In this document: positions 9,202-19,841 of the stretch, one piece after another
Layout of the letters: the number at the start of each line of letters is the position of its first letter
How positions within the stretch are numbered: the stretch's first letter is position 1
Source of the DNA: a virus
DNA: 37,001 bases
IMG/VR virus record: IMGVR_UViG_3300037517_001415
Coordinates: 1 to 37,001 of that record
Direction: 5' to 3' (one strand)
Notes under the pieces: model-generated
Databases searched by the model: none
Seen by the model: only the letters and a program-made list of their open reading frames with translations
Told to the model about the DNA's origin: nothing
Translations under genes and position numbers: made by a program

Positions 9202-10619
9202 CTCAAGTGTCCTGTCTTGTCTTTGTGTATGAATAGCCAGCCTCTCGCATATCCCATCGCATCTCGGTAGTCTTCGGCTTCGCTTCGCAACTTACATAAA
9301 CTTTGCAGAACATACAAAGGATGTAACTTACCCGCCTTGGTTAAGGCAATCCAATCCGGCAAGCCTCCGAGCTTAGCCATCTCGCGAGCTTCGTGCTTTG
9401 TCAATATAACCAACTCTTCAAGAACTTCGCGTTCTGTTTTCGGAATAAGTTTTCCACACTCCGAGCACACGCGAGCGGAGGCATATAGGAACGCATCGCA
9501 ATGAATGCAATTCTTGTAAACTGCTAATCCGTCCCGCTTCTTTTTAGGCGGCTTAGTCCAGTCGCGGTTATCGTCCCACATGCCAAATCGGTAAAGGTTG
9601 TTACCGAAGTCCAAGACCGTGAATTTATCCTTACCCTCGCAAGTCCTTGATCCCCGTCCGACCATCTGAAGAAACAACGGCAAACTCTTAGTAGCTCGGT
9701 ATAAAATTACCGTCTCAATACTCGGCTCGTCAAAGCCCGTGGTAAAAAGTCCTACATTGATTAAAACGGCGGCGGGGGTCTCTTTATACCACTTAAGAGC
9801 GTTTCGCCTCTCCTCGCGCCCCGCAGACCCGTCTAATGATATTACAGGGTGTCCCACCTTCTCAAATTCTGCATAGAGTTCAGCCGCGCTCTTTAAATTC
9901 GGCGCGAAAGCTATGGCCTTGGTATTCGGTGTCCATCGCTGGTAGTTTTGCACGGCTCCCTTGAATATCTGCATTCGTGAGTATTCGGCTCCTAGTGAAT
10001 CAGCGTCAAAGTCACCGCCTTTGGTTTTTACGCCGCTTAGATCGATAGGAACGGAATAGTACGAAGGCTTGGCTAAGTAGCCATCAGAGATAAGACTCGG
10101 AATAGTTGAAGCCTCGACCATGTGAGTATACAAGTCAGTCAACGGCGTTCCCTTCCCCTCTCGGTATGGTGTGGCCGTAGCTCCGAGCACCCTCGCATGA
10201 GAGGGAAGAAGAGGGAAGAGCTTATCGAATGTCCGCTTATGGCATTCATCGAATATGAATAAGTCAACCGAGTTTAGCAGTTCGCTGTAGATCCGCTGTT
10301 CAGCTCGGCGGTATATCGTCTCGATCATAGCCACAAAGATTCGCTGACTTGAGTTAACTCTGGTAGTCTCGGCTGTAATGAGTTCCGGCACGATAGCAAG
10401 GTTATTAAGCGCCCCGCCTGCTTGCCATAGTAGCTCGCCTCGGTCGGTAAGTATCATTACTCTTTTGCCTTTCTGCAGTGCGCTTTGTGCAATAGCAGAG
10501 AACATTATTGTCTTACCAGCTCCAGTCGGAGCGCAAAGAATTACGGCGCGGTGTCCATCGGCAAAAGCTTTGCGGAGGTTCTCAATTGCATCGGCTTGGT
10601 ATTTGCGTAGTTGTATCAT
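9198..10619 (-). CDS. SF2 DEAD/DEAH-type helicase with C-terminal zinc ribbon
   Basis: A 473-residue helicase from the ATG at 10619 (MIQLRKYQADAIENL). It shows a Q-like motif, Walker A APTGAGKT (about 30-37), DECH box (124-127), GATATP (motif III), and LQMVGRGSRT (motif VI), followed by a Cys cluster CIHCDAFLYASARVCSECGK that should bind zinc. A longer frame to 10667 would run through the repeat cluster and is not preferred. Such UvsW/RecG-like helicases remodel forks and recombination intermediates. It is the first gene after the origin-like region and probably starts an operon. Confidence 0.92.
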   Translation of the reverse strand: MIQLRKYQADAIENLRKAFADGHRAVILCAPTGAGKTIMFSAIAQSALQKGKRVMILTDRGELLWQAGGALNNLAIVPELITAETTRVNSSQRIFVAMIETIYRRAEQRIYSELLNSVDLFIFDECHKRTFDKLFPLLPSHARVLGATATPYREGKGTPLTDLYTHMVEASTIPSLISDGYLAKPSYYSVPIDLSGVKTKGGDFDADSLGAEYSRMQIFKGAVQNYQRWTPNTKAIAFAPNLKSAAELYAEFEKVGHPVISLDGSAGREERRNALKWYKETPAAVLINVGLFTTGFDEPSIETVILYRATKSLPLFLQMVGRGSRTCEGKDKFTVLDFGNNLYRFGMWDDNRDWTKPPKKKRDGLAVYKNCIHCDAFLYASARVCSECGKLIPKTEREVLEELVILTKHEAREMAKLGGLPDWIALTKAGKLHPLYVLQSLCKLRSEAEDYRDAMGYARGWLFIHKDKTGHLR

Positions 10620-10669
10620 GTGGTAAGGTGGTAAGAGTGTGGTAAGCAATTTTTTTACTCTTACCACAC

Positions 10670-10683
10670 TTTAAGTTCTTAAA
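10670..10683. promoter_or_regulatory. 14-base palindrome, operator-like
   Basis: TTTAAG, two bases, CTTAAA is a perfect dyad between repeat copies four and five. It lies 50 bases upstream of the helicase start, so it could be an operator or part of the origin. Confidence 0.5.
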
Positions 10684-10722
10684 AATTATTGAGTTACACT
10701 ATTATGTGGTAAGTGGTAAGAG

Positions 10723-10762
10723 AATATATATATATATATATATATTATATATAGTATAGTAA
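10723..10762. other. (AT)n tract, candidate DNA unwinding element
   Basis: About 30 bases of almost uninterrupted alternating AT (10723-10752), followed by AGTATAGTAAG. It is flanked on one side by paired GTGGTAAG repeats and on the other by a terminator hairpin. An easily melted tract beside iterons is the usual shape of a replication origin. It may also supply a -10 element, but the sequence is too simple to call one. Confidence 0.65.
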
Positions 10763-10778
10763 GTGCAATCACACACAT

Positions 10779-10810
10779 AAAAAATGCCAGGAAGTTTTAG
10801 GGCGTTTTTT
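10779..10810. terminator. Bidirectional terminator after the primase-helicase gene
   Basis: AAAAAATGCC, a 12-base loop, GGCGTTTTTT forms a hairpin with A and T tracts on both sides, so it can stop transcription in either direction. It lies 45 bases past the primase-helicase stop (10855) on the minus strand. Confidence 0.7.
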
Positions 10811-10828
10811 ACCTCTAGTCTTACCACA

Positions 10829-10841
10829 CGCCACAATGGCG
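10829..10841. repeat. CGCCA-CAA-TGGCG inverted repeat
   Basis: A perfect 5-bp dyad with a 3-base centre lies between the primase-helicase stop and the last GTGGTAAG copy. A further TTCGCCA copy lies just beside it (10847-10853). It may be a protein-binding site belonging to the origin region. Confidence 0.45.
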
Positions 10842-10854
10842 AAAAATTGGCGAA

Positions 10855-13059
10855 TTAACCGTAACTGCTGAAATTTGATGTGGTAGGCAGTATCTCTTTT
10901 ACCTTGTAGCACTTCACTGACTTACCATTTTTGCGCTTTGAGGTCCTTTCAAATCCTAAATTTCTGAGAGCGATTCCGACTCTTTGAGTGTTAAAATGCA
11001 GTTTTGAGTACTGCATCATGTAGGATATGATCTCGGTTGTTGTTTTCGTATTTGATTCATGATTCGAGTCAGTTTTCTCAAAAAACATCATGATAGCCTC
11101 TTCGACTGTATCTACTTGCTCGTTATATGAAGTGAGCTGGTTCAGGTTTTCGATATCCTCTTTGGATAATTGCCAAGAGCTATTACCTTCAGTGTGATAG
11201 ATGCGATATGCCTCCATGAATAACTCTGTTTTATCGATTGCGTTGAATGCCTCGAAGTCAATTGCTTTTATATTGATAGGCACGATACGGCGGTTCCCGG
11301 TCGGGTCGTTTATGATCTCAAGGTCGTTTGAAGTTCCTGAAAGCACGGCATATCGTGTAAAGTCTTGTGTTCTGCGGCCGTATGGCAATCTAAGAGTGAT
11401 AGTTTGCTTTGAGCTTATGTCTTTGATATGCTTGTACTCGCTTTTGTTTTTACCTGAGAACTCATCATCGCATAGGATTAGTTTTGTACACATAAGCATA
11501 AGATCATCCTTGCCGGTATCGAGTTTGGATTCTCCGTAGTAGCTTCTTAGCTCTTTTGGCAAGAGCCATCTAAAGAAATTAGTTTTCCCAATGCCTTGAC
11601 CTCCGACAAGCACTAGGATAAGAAGCGAGTAAGTGCCGTGCATGGATGCAACGATTGATACTATCCATTTGCGCAAGAAAGCATGCGCATATGCTTGATA
11701 TTCTTCGTATGTAACTCCTTGAGAGTCAAAGGTGATACACTCTGCGAGCTTTTCAATGTTGTTTTGGGTTACTTTATCTTTATTTGCCTCAAAAAACTGC
11801 ATAAATGGGTTATATCGAGGCGTTGCATCCGAATTTATGATGTCTTCGATGGTTGTTTTAGCACAACGCGTTCCAAGCGAGTCAGCTATCTCACCCCAGA
11901 TGGTATTTACATCCCAGTCGGTAAGTGCTCGGTCTTGGTATTCGATCATGTTAGTTACTTCATTCAATTTTAGGCCGTATGTAGCCAGCGCGGCGCGGAT
12001 TTCGGGTAATAGGTTTGCTTGTTTCTCTTTTGTTAGCTCCGAGCGTGGTATGGCGAGCGTTTGCTCTGCTATATCTTGAGCTATCTCGGTTGCTATACCG
12101 TCTTGCTTGGCTAGTTTAGTGACTGACTCGACTATTTCTGCGTCCGACTTGAAGCCCTGCAGCATTTGCGCTTTAGTATATCGTTCTACTTTGCGACTCT
12201 CCTCCGTTTGTATCTCAATACCGGCTTCTTTGCACTTGTAAAAGAAGGTGTTGATTTTTACGCGTCCATTGCCAGTCCGTAGGCATTCGGTATACTTAGC
12301 ATCACACTTTGCAGCGTCATACTTAGATCCTTGTTGAGATATGCAGTGAAAGTAGTGACGGCCTTGTTCTCCGTAGTGTCCTGCGATTGCAAATCCGATT
12401 TGCATCCAGTCATAGTAAGAGTCTACTAGGTCAATGCCACGCGAGCCTATTTGCATGAGGATATGATCTATATCGGATTTGGTATGTGGATAATACCGAC
12501 GCGCCTCTGCTTTTGGTTGTTTTAGGTATCGTTTAAATACTTGTGTTTTGCCCTCGCGTCTATAGAGATGCGGATCAAAGGAGACAAAGCGCAAACGGCT
12601 CGTATCCTTGCACGCTGGATCGCAAATAAGGTGATAACTATCGGCTAGGTGCTTTTCGATAGCGTGGTAGGCTTCTAAATGCTTTGTAGGCTCAATTAAG
12701 AAGTAAACAGCATAGCCATATCCTCCGACTGAGCGGTGATAGGCATAAACGAATGGATCTGACTGCAGTTGTTCTATTTGCATTTCGGGATTGTCTTTCT
12801 CATCGATATCCATGCAAAGAATACCAGAGTGAGCTTCGAGCGCGTCCGCTTTGCGTTCTGCGAACTTGCCGGACGGTGAGATAGCAGGGAGCTTGCGTTT
12901 AAAGTTGGTTTTGTTTTCGCCTTCGGGTAGATTCCGGTAAGTAATAACGATATCTTGCCATATACCTTGTTCTACTGACTTCAGAAAAAAGTCGAAGTCC
13001 ATAGTCTTCGCGGCTTTGGTTTCGCGTGTTGAGTTGAAGAAAGAAATAGTGATACTCAT
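10855..13059 (-). CDS. BT4734/VirE-type primase-helicase
   Basis: A 734-residue fusion. Residues 1-190 match the BT4734-like N-terminal domain: SGILCMDIDEKDNPEMQIEQ with acidic catalytic-type residues, then SVGGYGYAVYFLIEP and SRLRFVSFDP. Residues 195-280 are PriCT-like (DSYYDWMQIGFAIAGHYG, KINTFFYKCKEAG). Residues 400-690 are a VirE-type P-loop helicase with Walker A GGQGIGKTNFFRWLL, Walker B LILCDDEFSG, and GNRRIVPI as arginine finger/sensor. This family is typical of Bacteroidota phages and plasmids and should prime and unwind DNA at the fork. ATGA overlap couples it to the DnaA-like gene upstream. A repeat-rich origin candidate follows. Confidence 0.9.
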   Translation of the reverse strand: MSITISFFNSTRETKAAKTMDFDFFLKSVEQGIWQDIVITYRNLPEGENKTNFKRKLPAISPSGKFAERKADALEAHSGILCMDIDEKDNPEMQIEQLQSDPFVYAYHRSVGGYGYAVYFLIEPTKHLEAYHAIEKHLADSYHLICDPACKDTSRLRFVSFDPHLYRREGKTQVFKRYLKQPKAEARRYYPHTKSDIDHILMQIGSRGIDLVDSYYDWMQIGFAIAGHYGEQGRHYFHCISQQGSKYDAAKCDAKYTECLRTGNGRVKINTFFYKCKEAGIEIQTEESRKVERYTKAQMLQGFKSDAEIVESVTKLAKQDGIATEIAQDIAEQTLAIPRSELTKEKQANLLPEIRAALATYGLKLNEVTNMIEYQDRALTDWDVNTIWGEIADSLGTRCAKTTIEDIINSDATPRYNPFMQFFEANKDKVTQNNIEKLAECITFDSQGVTYEEYQAYAHAFLRKWIVSIVASMHGTYSLLILVLVGGQGIGKTNFFRWLLPKELRSYYGESKLDTGKDDLMLMCTKLILCDDEFSGKNKSEYKHIKDISSKQTITLRLPYGRRTQDFTRYAVLSGTSNDLEIINDPTGNRRIVPINIKAIDFEAFNAIDKTELFMEAYRIYHTEGNSSWQLSKEDIENLNQLTSYNEQVDTVEEAIMMFFEKTDSNHESNTKTTTEIISYMMQYSKLHFNTQRVGIALRNLGFERTSKRKNGKSVKCYKVKEILPTTSNFSSYG

Positions 13060-13496
13060 GCCTTTGCCTTGCGAATAAGTTGTAAGTAGATTTCGTTAAA
13101 GTTCGGGTCTAGGATGCGCTCGTGTTTTATATTTCGGGCTGCAATTATAGGCAATTTACGATCGCAATTAAATATAAAAGCGATATCCGTCATTGTAAAG
13201 CTAAAGTCTTGATAGCATATTGTTATGGCCACATGACGCGCGAAGCTTTGGCGCTGGTGAATATGCTGAACCGATATCTCATAGTATTCGGCTACCACTT
13301 GAATAACCCGCTCGGATACTTCATATAGCTCGGCCGTGTTCAGTTTCCGAACACGCCCGCGGGGTTTTTTTGTTCGATTTCCGAACAACTCCTCACGTTC
13401 TATTTTAAGAATCGCAGAAAGCGGGAGCGTAGCCAGCGGCTTAGGGTTTGTATCTTGCGCGAGATCACTGATGTGACCGATCGGATGTAAGGGCAT
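13056..13496 (-). CDS. DnaA domain IV-like protein with AT-hook-like segment
   Basis: A 146-residue protein. Residues 24-37 (LPLSAILKIEREEL) carry the short motif shared by the three genes upstream. Residues 40-50 (RTKKPRGRVRK) look like an AT-hook. Residues 62-135 (VIQVVAEYYEISVQHIHQRQ, ARHVAITICYQDFSFTMTDI, CDRKLPIIAARNI) follow the order of DnaA domain IV. The DnaA DHTTV signature is replaced by DRKLPII, so it would not read a standard DnaA box. There is no ATPase domain. Translationally coupled to the primase-helicase, it is a good candidate for the origin-recognition protein. Confidence 0.75.
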   Translation of the reverse strand: MPLHPIGHISDLAQDTNPKPLATLPLSAILKIEREELFGNRTKKPRGRVRKLNTAELYEVSERVIQVVAEYYEISVQHIHQRQSFARHVAITICYQDFSFTMTDIAFIFNCDRKLPIIAARNIKHERILDPNFNEIYLQLIRKAKA

Positions 13497-13535
13497 ATTT
13501 TTTCCTCTATGTAATATCCGACTTGTAAAGTAGTT

Positions 13536-14099
13536 TCACGATCTAAATTGTTCATGTCGAGTCCAGAGATAGTCTTCGATTTTTTGCGCTGTTAGTTGCA
13601 CTTGAGAGTAAGTATCGAGCTCATCCATAGCCGCGTAAATATGATGCGATAGAGTCGAGCGATTCATGTTTAGGTATTCGGCGATCTTGAATGATGTAAG
13701 CTTCAGATATACGGTTGCAAAGAATATAAACATTCTCTTTGCTGCTATTAGCTCTTGGAATCTGACTTTATCACGAAGCGTGTGATTTGTCGGGAAATGC
13801 TTAAGTACTTCGACTTCAAGACCGGATAGCTCCGCGTATGGATTTGCAAATGAGAAGTCTATGCCTCGCTTCATAAAGTGAGCGCTTTTGGTTTTGTGGT
13901 TAATTTGAGCGTATTGAAGCTGTGGCCTCTTTTGTTTTGCAAAGTAATAATCTGCAAGGTTATTCTTAGTTTTTATTGCTTGGTTTGTTTTGCGTTCGAG
14001 TTCTTCGCGTTCCTCTCGAAGTTGCTCTGATAGGCTTTTGCCTTTAACGAAGGGGGTCGGTAGACCTTCCCCCTCATCGTAAATAGCCACATGATTCAT
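13536..14099 (-). CDS. Motif-sharing DnaA-IV/HTH-like DNA-binding protein
   Basis: A 187-residue protein. Its first 35 residues (MNHVAIYDEGEGL, then KGKSLSEQLREEREEL) are homologous to those of the next gene upstream. Residues 95-187 (RFQELIAAKRMFIFFATVYL, KLTSFKIAEYLNMNRSTLSH, HIYAAMDEL) resemble the DnaA domain IV helix-turn-helix, with NRSTLSHHI where DnaA has DHTTVLHAI. No nucleotide-binding motif is present. It overlaps the upstream gene as ATGA and is followed by a 39-base gap. Likely a replication initiator or regulator acting with the other three proteins of the cassette. Confidence 0.72.
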   Translation of the reverse strand: MNHVAIYDEGEGLPTPFVKGKSLSEQLREEREELERKTNQAIKTKNNLADYYFAKQKRPQLQYAQINHKTKSAHFMKRGIDFSFANPYAELSGLEVEVLKHFPTNHTLRDKVRFQELIAAKRMFIFFATVYLKLTSFKIAEYLNMNRSTLSHHIYAAMDELDTYSQVQLTAQKIEDYLWTRHEQFRS

Positions 14100-14404
14100 T
14101 TTACATCCTCGAAATCTTTAAAGTACATAGTTAGTGCTCGGCGGAATAGCTCTCTTTGTGAGATATTTTGCGCCTTTGCAAGTGCTCGGAATCGATCTGC
14201 CATTGCGTTTGGTAACTTGAGAGCAAGCGGCGTAATGCCTTGTCTTTCATCTGGTGTGAGTCCTTCGCCTTTGCTTTTTTGGTATCCGATTGCAGTTTTC
14301 TCAATTACTTTGCGTTCCTCTCGCAATTGCTGCGACAATGGCACGCCGAGCTTAAGCGAAGTTTCGATACCGGCTACTTCTTTGTATAGGGCGGATATTT
14401 TCAT
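14096..14404 (-). CDS. Motif-sharing ribbon-helix-helix protein
   Basis: A 102-residue protein. Residues 20-33 (GVPLSQQLREERKVIE) carry the cassette motif, and the following residues through LTPDERQGI also resemble the gene upstream. Residues 55-98 (ITPLALKLPNAMADRFRALA, KAQNISQRELFRRALTMYF) are a typical ribbon-helix-helix DNA-binding domain. RHH proteins bind DNA as dimers, often at tandem or inverted short repeats. It overlaps both neighbours by four bases. It could bind the GTGGTAAG repeats or autoregulate the operon. Confidence 0.75.
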   Translation of the reverse strand: MKISALYKEVAGIETSLKLGVPLSQQLREERKVIEKTAIGYQKSKGEGLTPDERQGITPLALKLPNAMADRFRALAKAQNISQRELFRRALTMYFKDFEDVK

Positions 14405-14739
14405 AGTTCACCTCGCTGGTGCATTGAGATTACTGCAGATATGAGTTTTACTTTGATATGCTGCTCGGTTGGTAGTTCGAGCGTTGCTTTTACAAGCTCG
14501 GTGAAGCCATCAGTCACCGCTTTCGGAGTGTAATTTGCGCCAAGCTCTTTGCGTGGTCTTCCACCGCTTCCTGGCTTTGGTCCGCGTCTTATTGGCGCTC
14601 CAAGTTCATCGGGTGTGGCTTTATGTTTGATTGCAGATTTCTCTACAATTTCTCTTTCTTGTCTTAATTGCTGACTCATAGGTACTCCTTTTTTAAATGC
14701 TGTTTGTTCTGGTGGTACGGGAACTGGTTTGATATTCAT
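14401..14739 (-). CDS. Motif-sharing protein with AT-hook-like basic segment
   Basis: A 112-residue protein. Residues 18-31 (GVPMSQQLRQEREIVE) carry the cassette motif in nearly the same form as the next gene. Residues 49-64 (IRRGPKPGSGGRPRKE) are basic and Gly/Pro-rich with a GRP core like an AT-hook. The C-terminal 45 residues are helical (DGFTELVKATLELP, KLISAVISMHQRG) and unassigned. It overlaps the PD-(D/E)XK nuclease gene upstream and the RHH gene downstream by four bases each. DNA binding is inferred from the basic segment. Confidence 0.7.
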   Translation of the reverse strand: MNIKPVPVPPEQTAFKKGVPMSQQLRQEREIVEKSAIKHKATPDELGAPIRRGPKPGSGGRPRKELGANYTPKAVTDGFTELVKATLELPTEQHIKVKLISAVISMHQRGEL

Positions 14740-15353
14740 GCTAGTACTCCTTCTTTCAATTGCAAAACATCCTCTTTATCAAGCCCTCTCACTAAGATAT
14801 ACTCATGCAAGTAGTGTATCATATTTCGAACATATTCGTAATTGTACGCGGGTCTCGGGAATGAGTATTCCGCTTTGTTTTTAAAGTCCATCGCTTCAGG
14901 TGAGTCGAACTCAAATATCTTGTAATGGACAAAGGGGGCGTTGAATAACTCGCAATACACACGCCATTGTATTGAGTTGTAATAGTCATCAAAACTGATT
15001 GTACTATACTTGGTTTTGATTTCGACCACATCAAGCCCGATAAGCTGATCTGCAACGCCTGTTACTGATATATCACCGAATTGAGTACGAAACACGCGGC
15101 GGACTTTATACTCGAATACTCGCGAGCGATAATCCATGCAATTGCGGGCGTTTAGGATGCAATCAGTGCTGAACTTGCCTTCAAACTCCATAGGATAGTC
15201 GGTTTGCATCATCTCATGGAATGCAATCCCGCGTTGCATCATTGCATTCGGCGGGTCGAGTCTCAAGAGAGAGCGCTCGAATTGCTCGACTGTAATCAGG
15301 CCATCAAGAAAGCGGCGGTAAGATTCAAGCTGGGTGGCGGAGATTTTAATCAT
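14736..15353 (-). CDS. RecB/Cas4-like PD-(D/E)XK nuclease
   Basis: A 205-residue nuclease of the PDDEXK_1 type. RGIAFHEMMQ (41-50) is the conserved G-x-x-x-H motif. VTGVADQLIG supplies the Asp (D102), and VVEIKTKYS (109-117) the E-x-K. The later YNSIQWRVYCELFN is motif QxxxY-like. Such phage enzymes digest DNA ends and commonly partner with a single-strand annealing protein, here the Sak4-like ATPase at 16301-17194. It overlaps its neighbours by four bases on both sides, so it is produced together with the small genes upstream and the motif cassette downstream. Confidence 0.88.
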   Translation of the reverse strand: MIKISATQLESYRRFLDGLITVEQFERSLLRLDPPNAMMQRGIAFHEMMQTDYPMEFEGKFSTDCILNARNCMDYRSRVFEYKVRRVFRTQFGDISVTGVADQLIGLDVVEIKTKYSTISFDDYYNSIQWRVYCELFNAPFVHYKIFEFDSPEAMDFKNKAEYSFPRPAYNYEYVRNMIHYLHEYILVRGLDKEDVLQLKEGVLA

Positions 15354-18685: not shown

Positions 18686-18871
18686 ATTATAGTAGTCTTC
18701 CTTCATGACTTTCAGCATGAATTTACAAGTTGCTATCTCGCCTTGTGCCATAAGAAGCTGATCGCATTCTTTTACGGCCAAAGATACGGCCTTATTTATT
18801 GGTAGCTTCTTGCGAATAGCATAGGCTCTAATAGCCCGCTCTTCTTTTGGGTCGGTAATGCGAATGACCAT
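18674..18871 (-). CDS. Small ribbon-helix-helix-like protein, last late gene
   Basis: A 65-residue protein. VIRITDPKEERAIRAYAIRK, KLPINKAVSLAVKECDQLL has the strand-helix-helix pattern of Arc/CopG-type DNA-binding proteins, followed by a helical Lys-rich end. Its ATG shares one base with the stop of the tail gene upstream (TAATG). A regulator at the end of the late operon, next to the control region, could turn the early promoters off. The match is by pattern. Confidence 0.62.
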   Translation of the reverse strand: MVIRITDPKEERAIRAYAIRKKLPINKAVSLAVKECDQLLMAQGEIATCKFMLKVMKEDYYNKKP

Positions 18872-19362
18872 TAATCGCGTCTCAGTACGATTTGACCTTT
18901 GATGGTTGCACCTGATGCGAAAGTATTAGCGTCTTTGATTTCGGGAACCATGTAAAGCGTTTTGCTTGTAGGCTGACATACATATTCAATTGCTATATTC
19001 TTTTGCAATATTCTTACGCCTGTACCCGCTGCTATCCAATCAGCTTCTGCAATATCAGCATAACCTACCATAAGATCCATTTGAGCGCTTGTAAAGGCTT
19101 GCGGACTATTCCGCGCGGCTGGTGTAATTGCCGAGCCGAAAAACCAGAGGCGCAAAGCTGGGACTTGAACTGTACCCGATGAGGTTTCTTTTAGTATTAT
19201 GCGTTCCATCATACCTGAAAACCCAAGGAATCTAGCCGCGTCAATTGAGATAGCGCCTGAAGTGAGAATGTCATTTGCAGCATATGCGGCGGTATCGAGC
19301 GTTCCGAAGTCAAAGGCTCTTAATACTCTATCTTGTCCTGTTTTACCTGTATAAAATTCCAT
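18871..19362 (-). CDS. Tail/receptor-associated protein, paralogue 2
   Basis: A 163-residue protein clearly homologous to the next gene upstream (19365-19841). Shared points in order are FDFG-x-L, D-(I/V)-LTSG, FG-x-x-I-x-P-A-x-N, FT-x-x-QMD-x-x-VG, YV/YVCQP, LY-x-V, FA-x-x, and a final (I/V)LKRD or LRRD. It is beta-rich with no signal peptide or enzyme motif. The position after the tail-tip genes suggests a virion protein of the baseplate or a small decoration protein. The tandem pair points to duplication with functional divergence. Confidence 0.68.
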   Translation of the reverse strand: MEFYTGKTGQDRVLRAFDFGTLDTAAYAANDILTSGAISIDAARFLGFSGMMERIILKETSSGTVQVPALRLWFFGSAITPAARNSPQAFTSAQMDLMVGYADIAEADWIAAGTGVRILQKNIAIEYVCQPTSKTLYMVPEIKDANTFASGATIKGQIVLRRD

Positions 19363-19364
19363 GT

Positions 19365-19841
19365 TTAATCTCTTTTTAGAATGAAGTGTCCTGTAACTTT
19401 CGAGGTTGCAAAATAACCATCTGCTTGACTGATTACAAATACAATATACAGCGCATTTGAATCTGGCTGAGTAACGTAAGGCATATCAATTGTCTTGTAT
19501 ACAACGTATCCATCCGAAGTTGATCTATACTCATTTGATGATAGAGTAATAAGCCCAACAAACTTATCCATTTGCTCCGCAGTAAAGTCTCTTGGCGCGT
19601 TTTGCGCTGGTGGATCAATCGGAGCGCCAAAGATATACATAGAACCTACCGGAACTGCATTTATAATTTTAAAGTAAATTGCTTCAATGACTCCAGATGA
19701 TTGACCAGTCCTACCGGTATAAGCTGGTATATTACCAGAGGTTAGTACATCTAGTGTGCTATAACTTCCTGTTAATACGCCGAAGTCAAACTCTGATTTA
19801 TAATTATCATTTCCAATGCTACCGAGATACCGATTATTCAT
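19365..19841 (-). CDS. Tail/receptor-associated protein, paralogue 1
   Basis: A 158-residue beta-rich protein, tandem paralogue of 18871-19362 and two bases from it. SEFDFGVLTGSYSTLDVLTS (16-35), GAPIDPPAQN, FTAEQMDKFVGL and FILKRD line up with the sister gene. The N-terminal half differs: this one begins NNRYLGSIGNDNYK, while a GRTGQ phrase at residues 43-47 reappears at the very start of the sister as GKTGQ. Both proteins probably form part of the tail tip. No family is recognised. Confidence 0.68.
   Translation of the reverse strand: MNNRYLGSIGNDNYKSEFDFGVLTGSYSTLDVLTSGNIPAYTGRTGQSSGVIEAIYFKIINAVPVGSMYIFGAPIDPPAQNAPRDFTAEQMDKFVGLITLSSNEYRSTSDGYVVYKTIDMPYVTQPDSNALYIVFVISQADGYFATSKVTGHFILKRD

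Follow-up and report, generated by a model that had tools for sequence, protein, structure and literature searches.

A short N-terminal module on neighbouring DNA-binding proteins of one phage clade, a candidate docking tag beside a VirE-type primase-helicase

Why would several small proteins with DNA-binding domains of different kinds begin with one and the same short peptide, and why would their genes stand in a row ahead of a primase-helicase gene? The question is raised by four genes, here called A, B, C and D, in the window, that is, the whole 37-kb stretch of a virus record that was analysed, whose genes for tail tape measure, major head, portal, terminase and endolysin mark its source as a tailed phage. 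The first-pass annotation had described four consecutive, translationally coupled genes sharing one motif, and had read this motif as a docking or assembly peptide of a multi-protein initiator. The open reading frames and the four motif strings were all recovered (Table 1), and the row does lead into the primase-helicase, whose gene D overlaps by 4 nt. The proposed coupling agrees with the 4-nt overlaps at the A-B, B-C and D-primase junctions, but not with the C-D junction, a 39-nt gap bridged by the small ORF X.

Table 1. Coordinates and composition of the features of the locus in the window.
Feature	Coordinates	Strand	Length	Composition
Gene A	14401..14739	(-)	112 aa	accessory gene; module at residues about 1-47, core GVPMSQQLRQERE, then basic AT-hook-like segment and variable C-terminal domain
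Gene B	14096..14404	(-)	102 aa	module at 1-42, core GVPLSQQLREERK, then ribbon-helix-helix (RHH) domain at 62-94
Gene C	13536..14099	(-)	187 aa	module at 1-48, core GKSLSEQLREERE, then linker and helix-turn-helix (HTH) domain at about 91-187, family uncertain
Gene D	13056..13496	(-)	146 aa	probable module, core LPLSAILKIERE at residues 24-35, then basic segment and predicted DnaA domain IV fold at 54-123
Motif core of A	14650..14688	(-)
Motif core of B	14309..14347	(-)
Motif core of C	13998..14042	(-)
Probable motif core of D	13386..13427	(-)
Small ORF X	13400..13555	(-)	51 aa	spans the C-D gap; other frame over the first 32 codons of D
Nucleotide-level conserved block	13350..13500	(-)		covers D codons 1-50; may be a cis-element or a recombination tract
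Primase-helicase	10855..13059	(-)	734 residues	BT4734-like N-terminal, PriCT-2 and VapE/VirE ATPase domains

In A, B and C the resemblance lies well above chance and points to real homology. The Smith-Waterman scores of the N-terminal 50 residues are 95 for A-B, 63 for A-C and 70 for B-C, with a composition-shuffled mean of about 22, and were matched by none of 2000 composition shuffles; among the 1,485 window gene pairs they rank 1, 4 and 3, respectively. Profile HMMs built by leaving one family out find A at E 5e-12, B at 1e-10 and C at 4e-9 among the 302 window ORFs, and hhalign pairs B with C from the first residue onwards (E 4e-9, 38 columns); that two of the proteins align from residue 1 had been noticed at the outset. 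Rank 2 is occupied by an unrelated pair of tandem paralogous genes (18871-19362 and 19365-19841, N-terminal alignment score 86), and a near-match such as MSYQLQSERKELRR (10508-10645, plus strand, antisense to the helicase gene), like others similar to it, was put down to chance. The module itself has no match in Pfam, PHROG, NCBIfam or PDB, the comparison with PHROGs giving chance-level matches only and the PDB sequence search with the C profile and the module profile giving none.

The pattern of substitutions shows that it is the peptide that has been kept. The pN/pS of the module is 0.15 in A, against 0.69 for the C-terminus, and 0.08 in B, against 0.25 for the RHH domain; in C, at 0.16 against 0.12, the constraint on the module does not exceed that on the HTH domain. 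Synonymous divergence within the module is ample in these genes (pS 0.30-0.42), and the pairs formed among A, B and C differ from each other at many synonymous positions with their residues unchanged. In two relatives, moreover, A keeps 49/49 and 47/49 of residues 1-49, and just 18/63 and 17/63 of residues 50-112. All of this indicates strong purifying selection at the protein level on the module of A, B and C; the low pN/pS, together with an A N-terminus that is kept while the remainder is swapped, means that the peptide is retained for its amino-acid sequence and that the domain behind it is replaceable.

The fourth gene is a more delicate case, and the claim of one motif in four genes, which stands for A, B and C, is only probable for D. 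The D of the window does not match the A/B/C HMM significantly (E 2.1 among the 302 ORFs), and its pairwise alignment scores are reached by 48-246 of 2000 shuffles. When the register is not supplied, hhalign nevertheless aligns C with D on exactly the motif columns (E 0.002) and begins the alignment of B with D on them (E 2e-4). The D allele of contig 3300047557_002754, PLSQQLRIEREIL (LSQQLRIERE), is picked up by the A/B/C HMM (E 1e-3) in a search of 10,535 ORFs, and the L018 allele, of whose 16 motif codons 3 are identical to those of the window, 9 synonymous and 4 replaced, retains P-L-S-x-x-L-(K/R)-I-E-R-E. This divergent allele carries more weight than the overall conservation of the D N-terminus, which has to be discounted as inflated, since codons 1-50 lie within a block that is conserved at the DNA level beyond the needs of the protein: pS is about 0.12-0.25 there, against 0.3-0.6 over codons 51-105, and identity to L065, 90-95% at 13350-13500, falls to some 65-80% over most of the sequence next to it.

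This block of about 150 bp, with unusually low nucleotide diversity across the relatives, contains an imperfect palindrome, GATCGGTCAC-ATCA-GTGATC; it may be a cis-element, or it may be a recombination tract. The palindromic stretch (13463-13482) is a single copy for which no repeat was found, and RNA structure near the start of D gives no signal (z -0.58). As for ORF X, its codons 7-20 change in the manner of coding sequence (pS 0.19, pN 0.03) and its codons 21-48, which overlap D, do not; most relatives start it with ATG, L065 with GTG and L027 with ATT. The constraint on both X codons 7-20 and D prompted the idea of a programmed frameshift from X into D, which was rejected as the main reading because the A-run is lost in L027 and L065.

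The DNA-binding domains first proposed, AT-hook-like in A, RHH in B and DnaA domain IV in both C and D, fared unequally. That of B is recognised by Pfam (RHH_1, 25.3 bits, cut-off 20.5). D remains below the gathering score of Bac_DnaA_C (21.5 bits against 31.5), and it is its predicted structure (domain pLDDT 67-82) that has the DnaA domain IV fold, Foldseek pairing it with 3pvp and 1j1v at a TM (target) of 0.78-0.79, an rmsd of 1.9-2.2 Å, prob 1.00 and E 0.007-0.017. On inspection of its sequence D has no DnaA-box recognition loop of the DHTTV type, with RKLPIIAA at the corresponding place, and DnaA boxes are neither enriched nor clustered in the window, which has 73 where 76 would be expected. 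For C the assignment is doubtful: Bac_DnaA_C matches the window member at E 0.044 (14.3 bits, cut-off 31.5) and weakly all 16 of 16 family members (best E 0.013), and the AlphaFold model (pLDDT 43) is too poor for a fold search, so that C is taken as an HTH protein of uncertain family, not convincingly DnaA domain IV. The same model places the C motif, with low confidence, in a helix at 23-55. In A the AT-hook is a basic GRPRK / KRGRKP stretch seen by eye, with no Pfam, PHROG or NCBIfam match. Neither C nor D has an AAA+ match, and at 187 and 146 aa they are not full-length DnaA initiators.

How general is this arrangement? Whether B, C, D, the module or profiles served as the query, scanning IMG/VR led to one and the same group of some 30 contigs, the wider viral scans with the B, C and D profiles giving nothing beyond it, and the counts that follow were taken over 29 related viral contigs, which represent one clade of uncultured phages. 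C is present in 29 of them, B in 28, D in 27 and A in only 7, the absent copies of B and D falling at contig ends. Every copy of A, B, C or D in these contigs retains the motif core, without exception; no homologue that keeps the DNA-binding domain and lacks the motif was found within the clade, and the conservation there goes beyond generic coiled-coil composition. The clade is narrow, its most diverged contig being 64% identical in B and C, and the conservation seen spans this range. In the contigs of 19 relatives the module is confined to the A/B/C/D genes, bar one weak match that lies on the other strand of G002 and covers 14 positions (E 0.008). Among isolate phages tblastn, queried with C, with D and with the N-terminus of the L065 B, brought up no relative, and scans of GTDB genomes for the module and for the primase gave none that was confirmed.

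The consecutive order, true of the window, is the exception among relatives: A-B-C-D follow one another without insertion in only 3 of the 29 contigs (L007, L019 and L028). The B-C junction, examined in 28, is a 4-nt overlap in 13 and is opened by an insertion of 2.2-2.4 kb in 15; the insert checked against Pfam, that of L027 (1025-3395), encodes a helicase (ResIII, SNF2-related) and an N6/N4 DNA methylase. The slot of A is occupied by PAPS-reductase/DUF3440 and ParB-like proteins in L031 (2797-4998), by a protein that matches GmrSD_N weakly in L044 (2959-3717) and, in L027 (403-723), by a small protein whose match to a recombinase is weak. D overlaps the primase gene in those relatives whose primase was fetched. 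Nor do primases of the VirE type always have the motif beside them: phages whose VirE-type primases are 38-46% identical lack it where looked at, among them Cellulophaga phi46:1, which has a DnaA-like protein of its own.

The explanation that we favour is that an N-terminal module of some 25-40 residues would have been duplicated within one phage clade, its copies coming to stand in front of DNA-binding domains of different kinds (AT-hook-like, RHH, HTH and DnaA domain IV). The module would probably be a short helix with a P-L-S cap and a conserved surface formed by L27, R28, E30, R31 and E35 (numbering of B and C), and would act as a docking tag bringing these DNA binders to one common partner. 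One peptide on different DNA-binding domains, under protein-level selection and retained while the DNA-binding half of A was swapped, is what such a docking or assembly tag predicts; against it stand the weak motif of the window D and the partly DNA-level conservation of that gene, a module in C held no more tightly than its HTH domain, the relatives in which A and the B-C adjacency are dispensable, and the related primases that function without the motif. We regard the docking tag as the best explanation, granting it about as much credence as we withhold. Since C, X, D and the primase form an unbroken series while A and the B-C junction vary, the first candidate for the partner would be the primase-helicase or the nucleoprotein assembly formed on the phage origin, a host protein coming second, an identification that we offer tentatively. 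The strict four-part initiator of the first-pass annotation is weakened by an optional A, by the frequent distance of 2.2-2.4 kb between B and C and by the related primases without the motif. A looser form, a split multi-subunit initiator whose small, interchangeable DNA binders of different specificities would use the common peptide to address one receptor, the adjacent primase-helicase, seems to us unlikely.

The module could instead be an association helix by which A, B, C and D bind one another, in a mixed helical bundle with no further partner, which we consider possible if somewhat doubtful. Inspection of B gives a partly amphipathic series (L23, L27, I34, A38), a helix is predicted in C with low confidence, the genes are neighbours with 4-nt overlaps, and a dispensable A is what interchangeable subunits would show; yet the conserved positions are mainly charged or polar (Q26, R28, E30, R31, E35), closer to a recognised surface than to a coiled-coil core, and the core extends over just two to three heptads or so. 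Could the likeness be merely inherited, the N-termini of A, B and C descending from a duplicated gene start whose 3′ part was replaced, and being held by ordinary folding constraint only? The alignment of B and C from the first residue, some codons common to both and the swapped C-terminus of A are in accordance with this, but ancestry accounts for the origin of the module and not for its retention, and against a mere relic the module tolerates less change than the DNA-binding parts do in A and B, and the pairs keep its residues across many synonymous differences; as a full account we find it distinctly unlikely.

A role outside replication, in which the four proteins would regulate transcription of the early operon and of accessory genes, the module bringing them to a host factor such as RNA polymerase, is more improbable still: RHH proteins are usually regulators, and the A slot and the B-C junction gather accessory genes, some for DNA modification, whereas the predicted DnaA domain IV fold of D and the overlap of D with the primase gene speak against it. 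Finally, the stretch might be a nucleic-acid signal, for translation or in the DNA, translated by chance, as the DNA-level conservation of D codons 1-50 would allow; to this we attach next to no credence, as the synonymous sites of A, B and C vary freely with the residues fixed, and the start of D gives no sign of RNA structure.

The docking-tag reading has parallels among known systems. Clamp-binding motifs and the SSB tail are cases in which one short peptide on several unrelated proteins addresses one partner, and the likeness to the module extends to the common partner, here only inferred; the module differs in its sequence, in its N-terminal position and in being limited to neighbouring DNA-binding proteins of one phage clade. 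No description of such a common peptide on neighbouring DNA-binding proteins was found in the open-access literature, in keeping with the first impression that no system of this type had been described; the idea of a common interaction peptide is known, and the sequence and placement of this module are new to us. D shares its fold with proteins that tailed phages encode as a stand-alone DnaA domain IV (annotated “Chromosomal replication initiator, DnaA C-terminal”), of which BFVD holds many, but its N-terminal module is missing from the DnaA-like protein of phi46:1 and from those of phages with 43-46% identical primases. B resembles the CopG/RHH regulators (RHH_1) in its C-terminal half and differs from them in its 40-residue N-terminal module; it has no full-length homologue in plasmids, and phage records gave no module match. 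The primase-helicase adjoining D has the same domain set as the primases of mobile elements, in which a BT4734-like primase is combined with a VirE-family ATPase (families named in PMC5862659). Other phages with a BT4734-like/VirE-type enzyme lack module-bearing genes, none being seen beside the primase in the two annotated isolates examined.

We know of no route by which phages of this kind deliver their VirE-type primase-helicase to the origin, and the receptor of the module would offer a concrete and readily tested handle on its recruitment. The locus also illustrates clearly how a short functional module persists when the DNA-binding domain that follows it is swapped. It lies in a part of the window (10500-15000) where GC skew is positive, the flanking regions, coding on the same strand, being negative.
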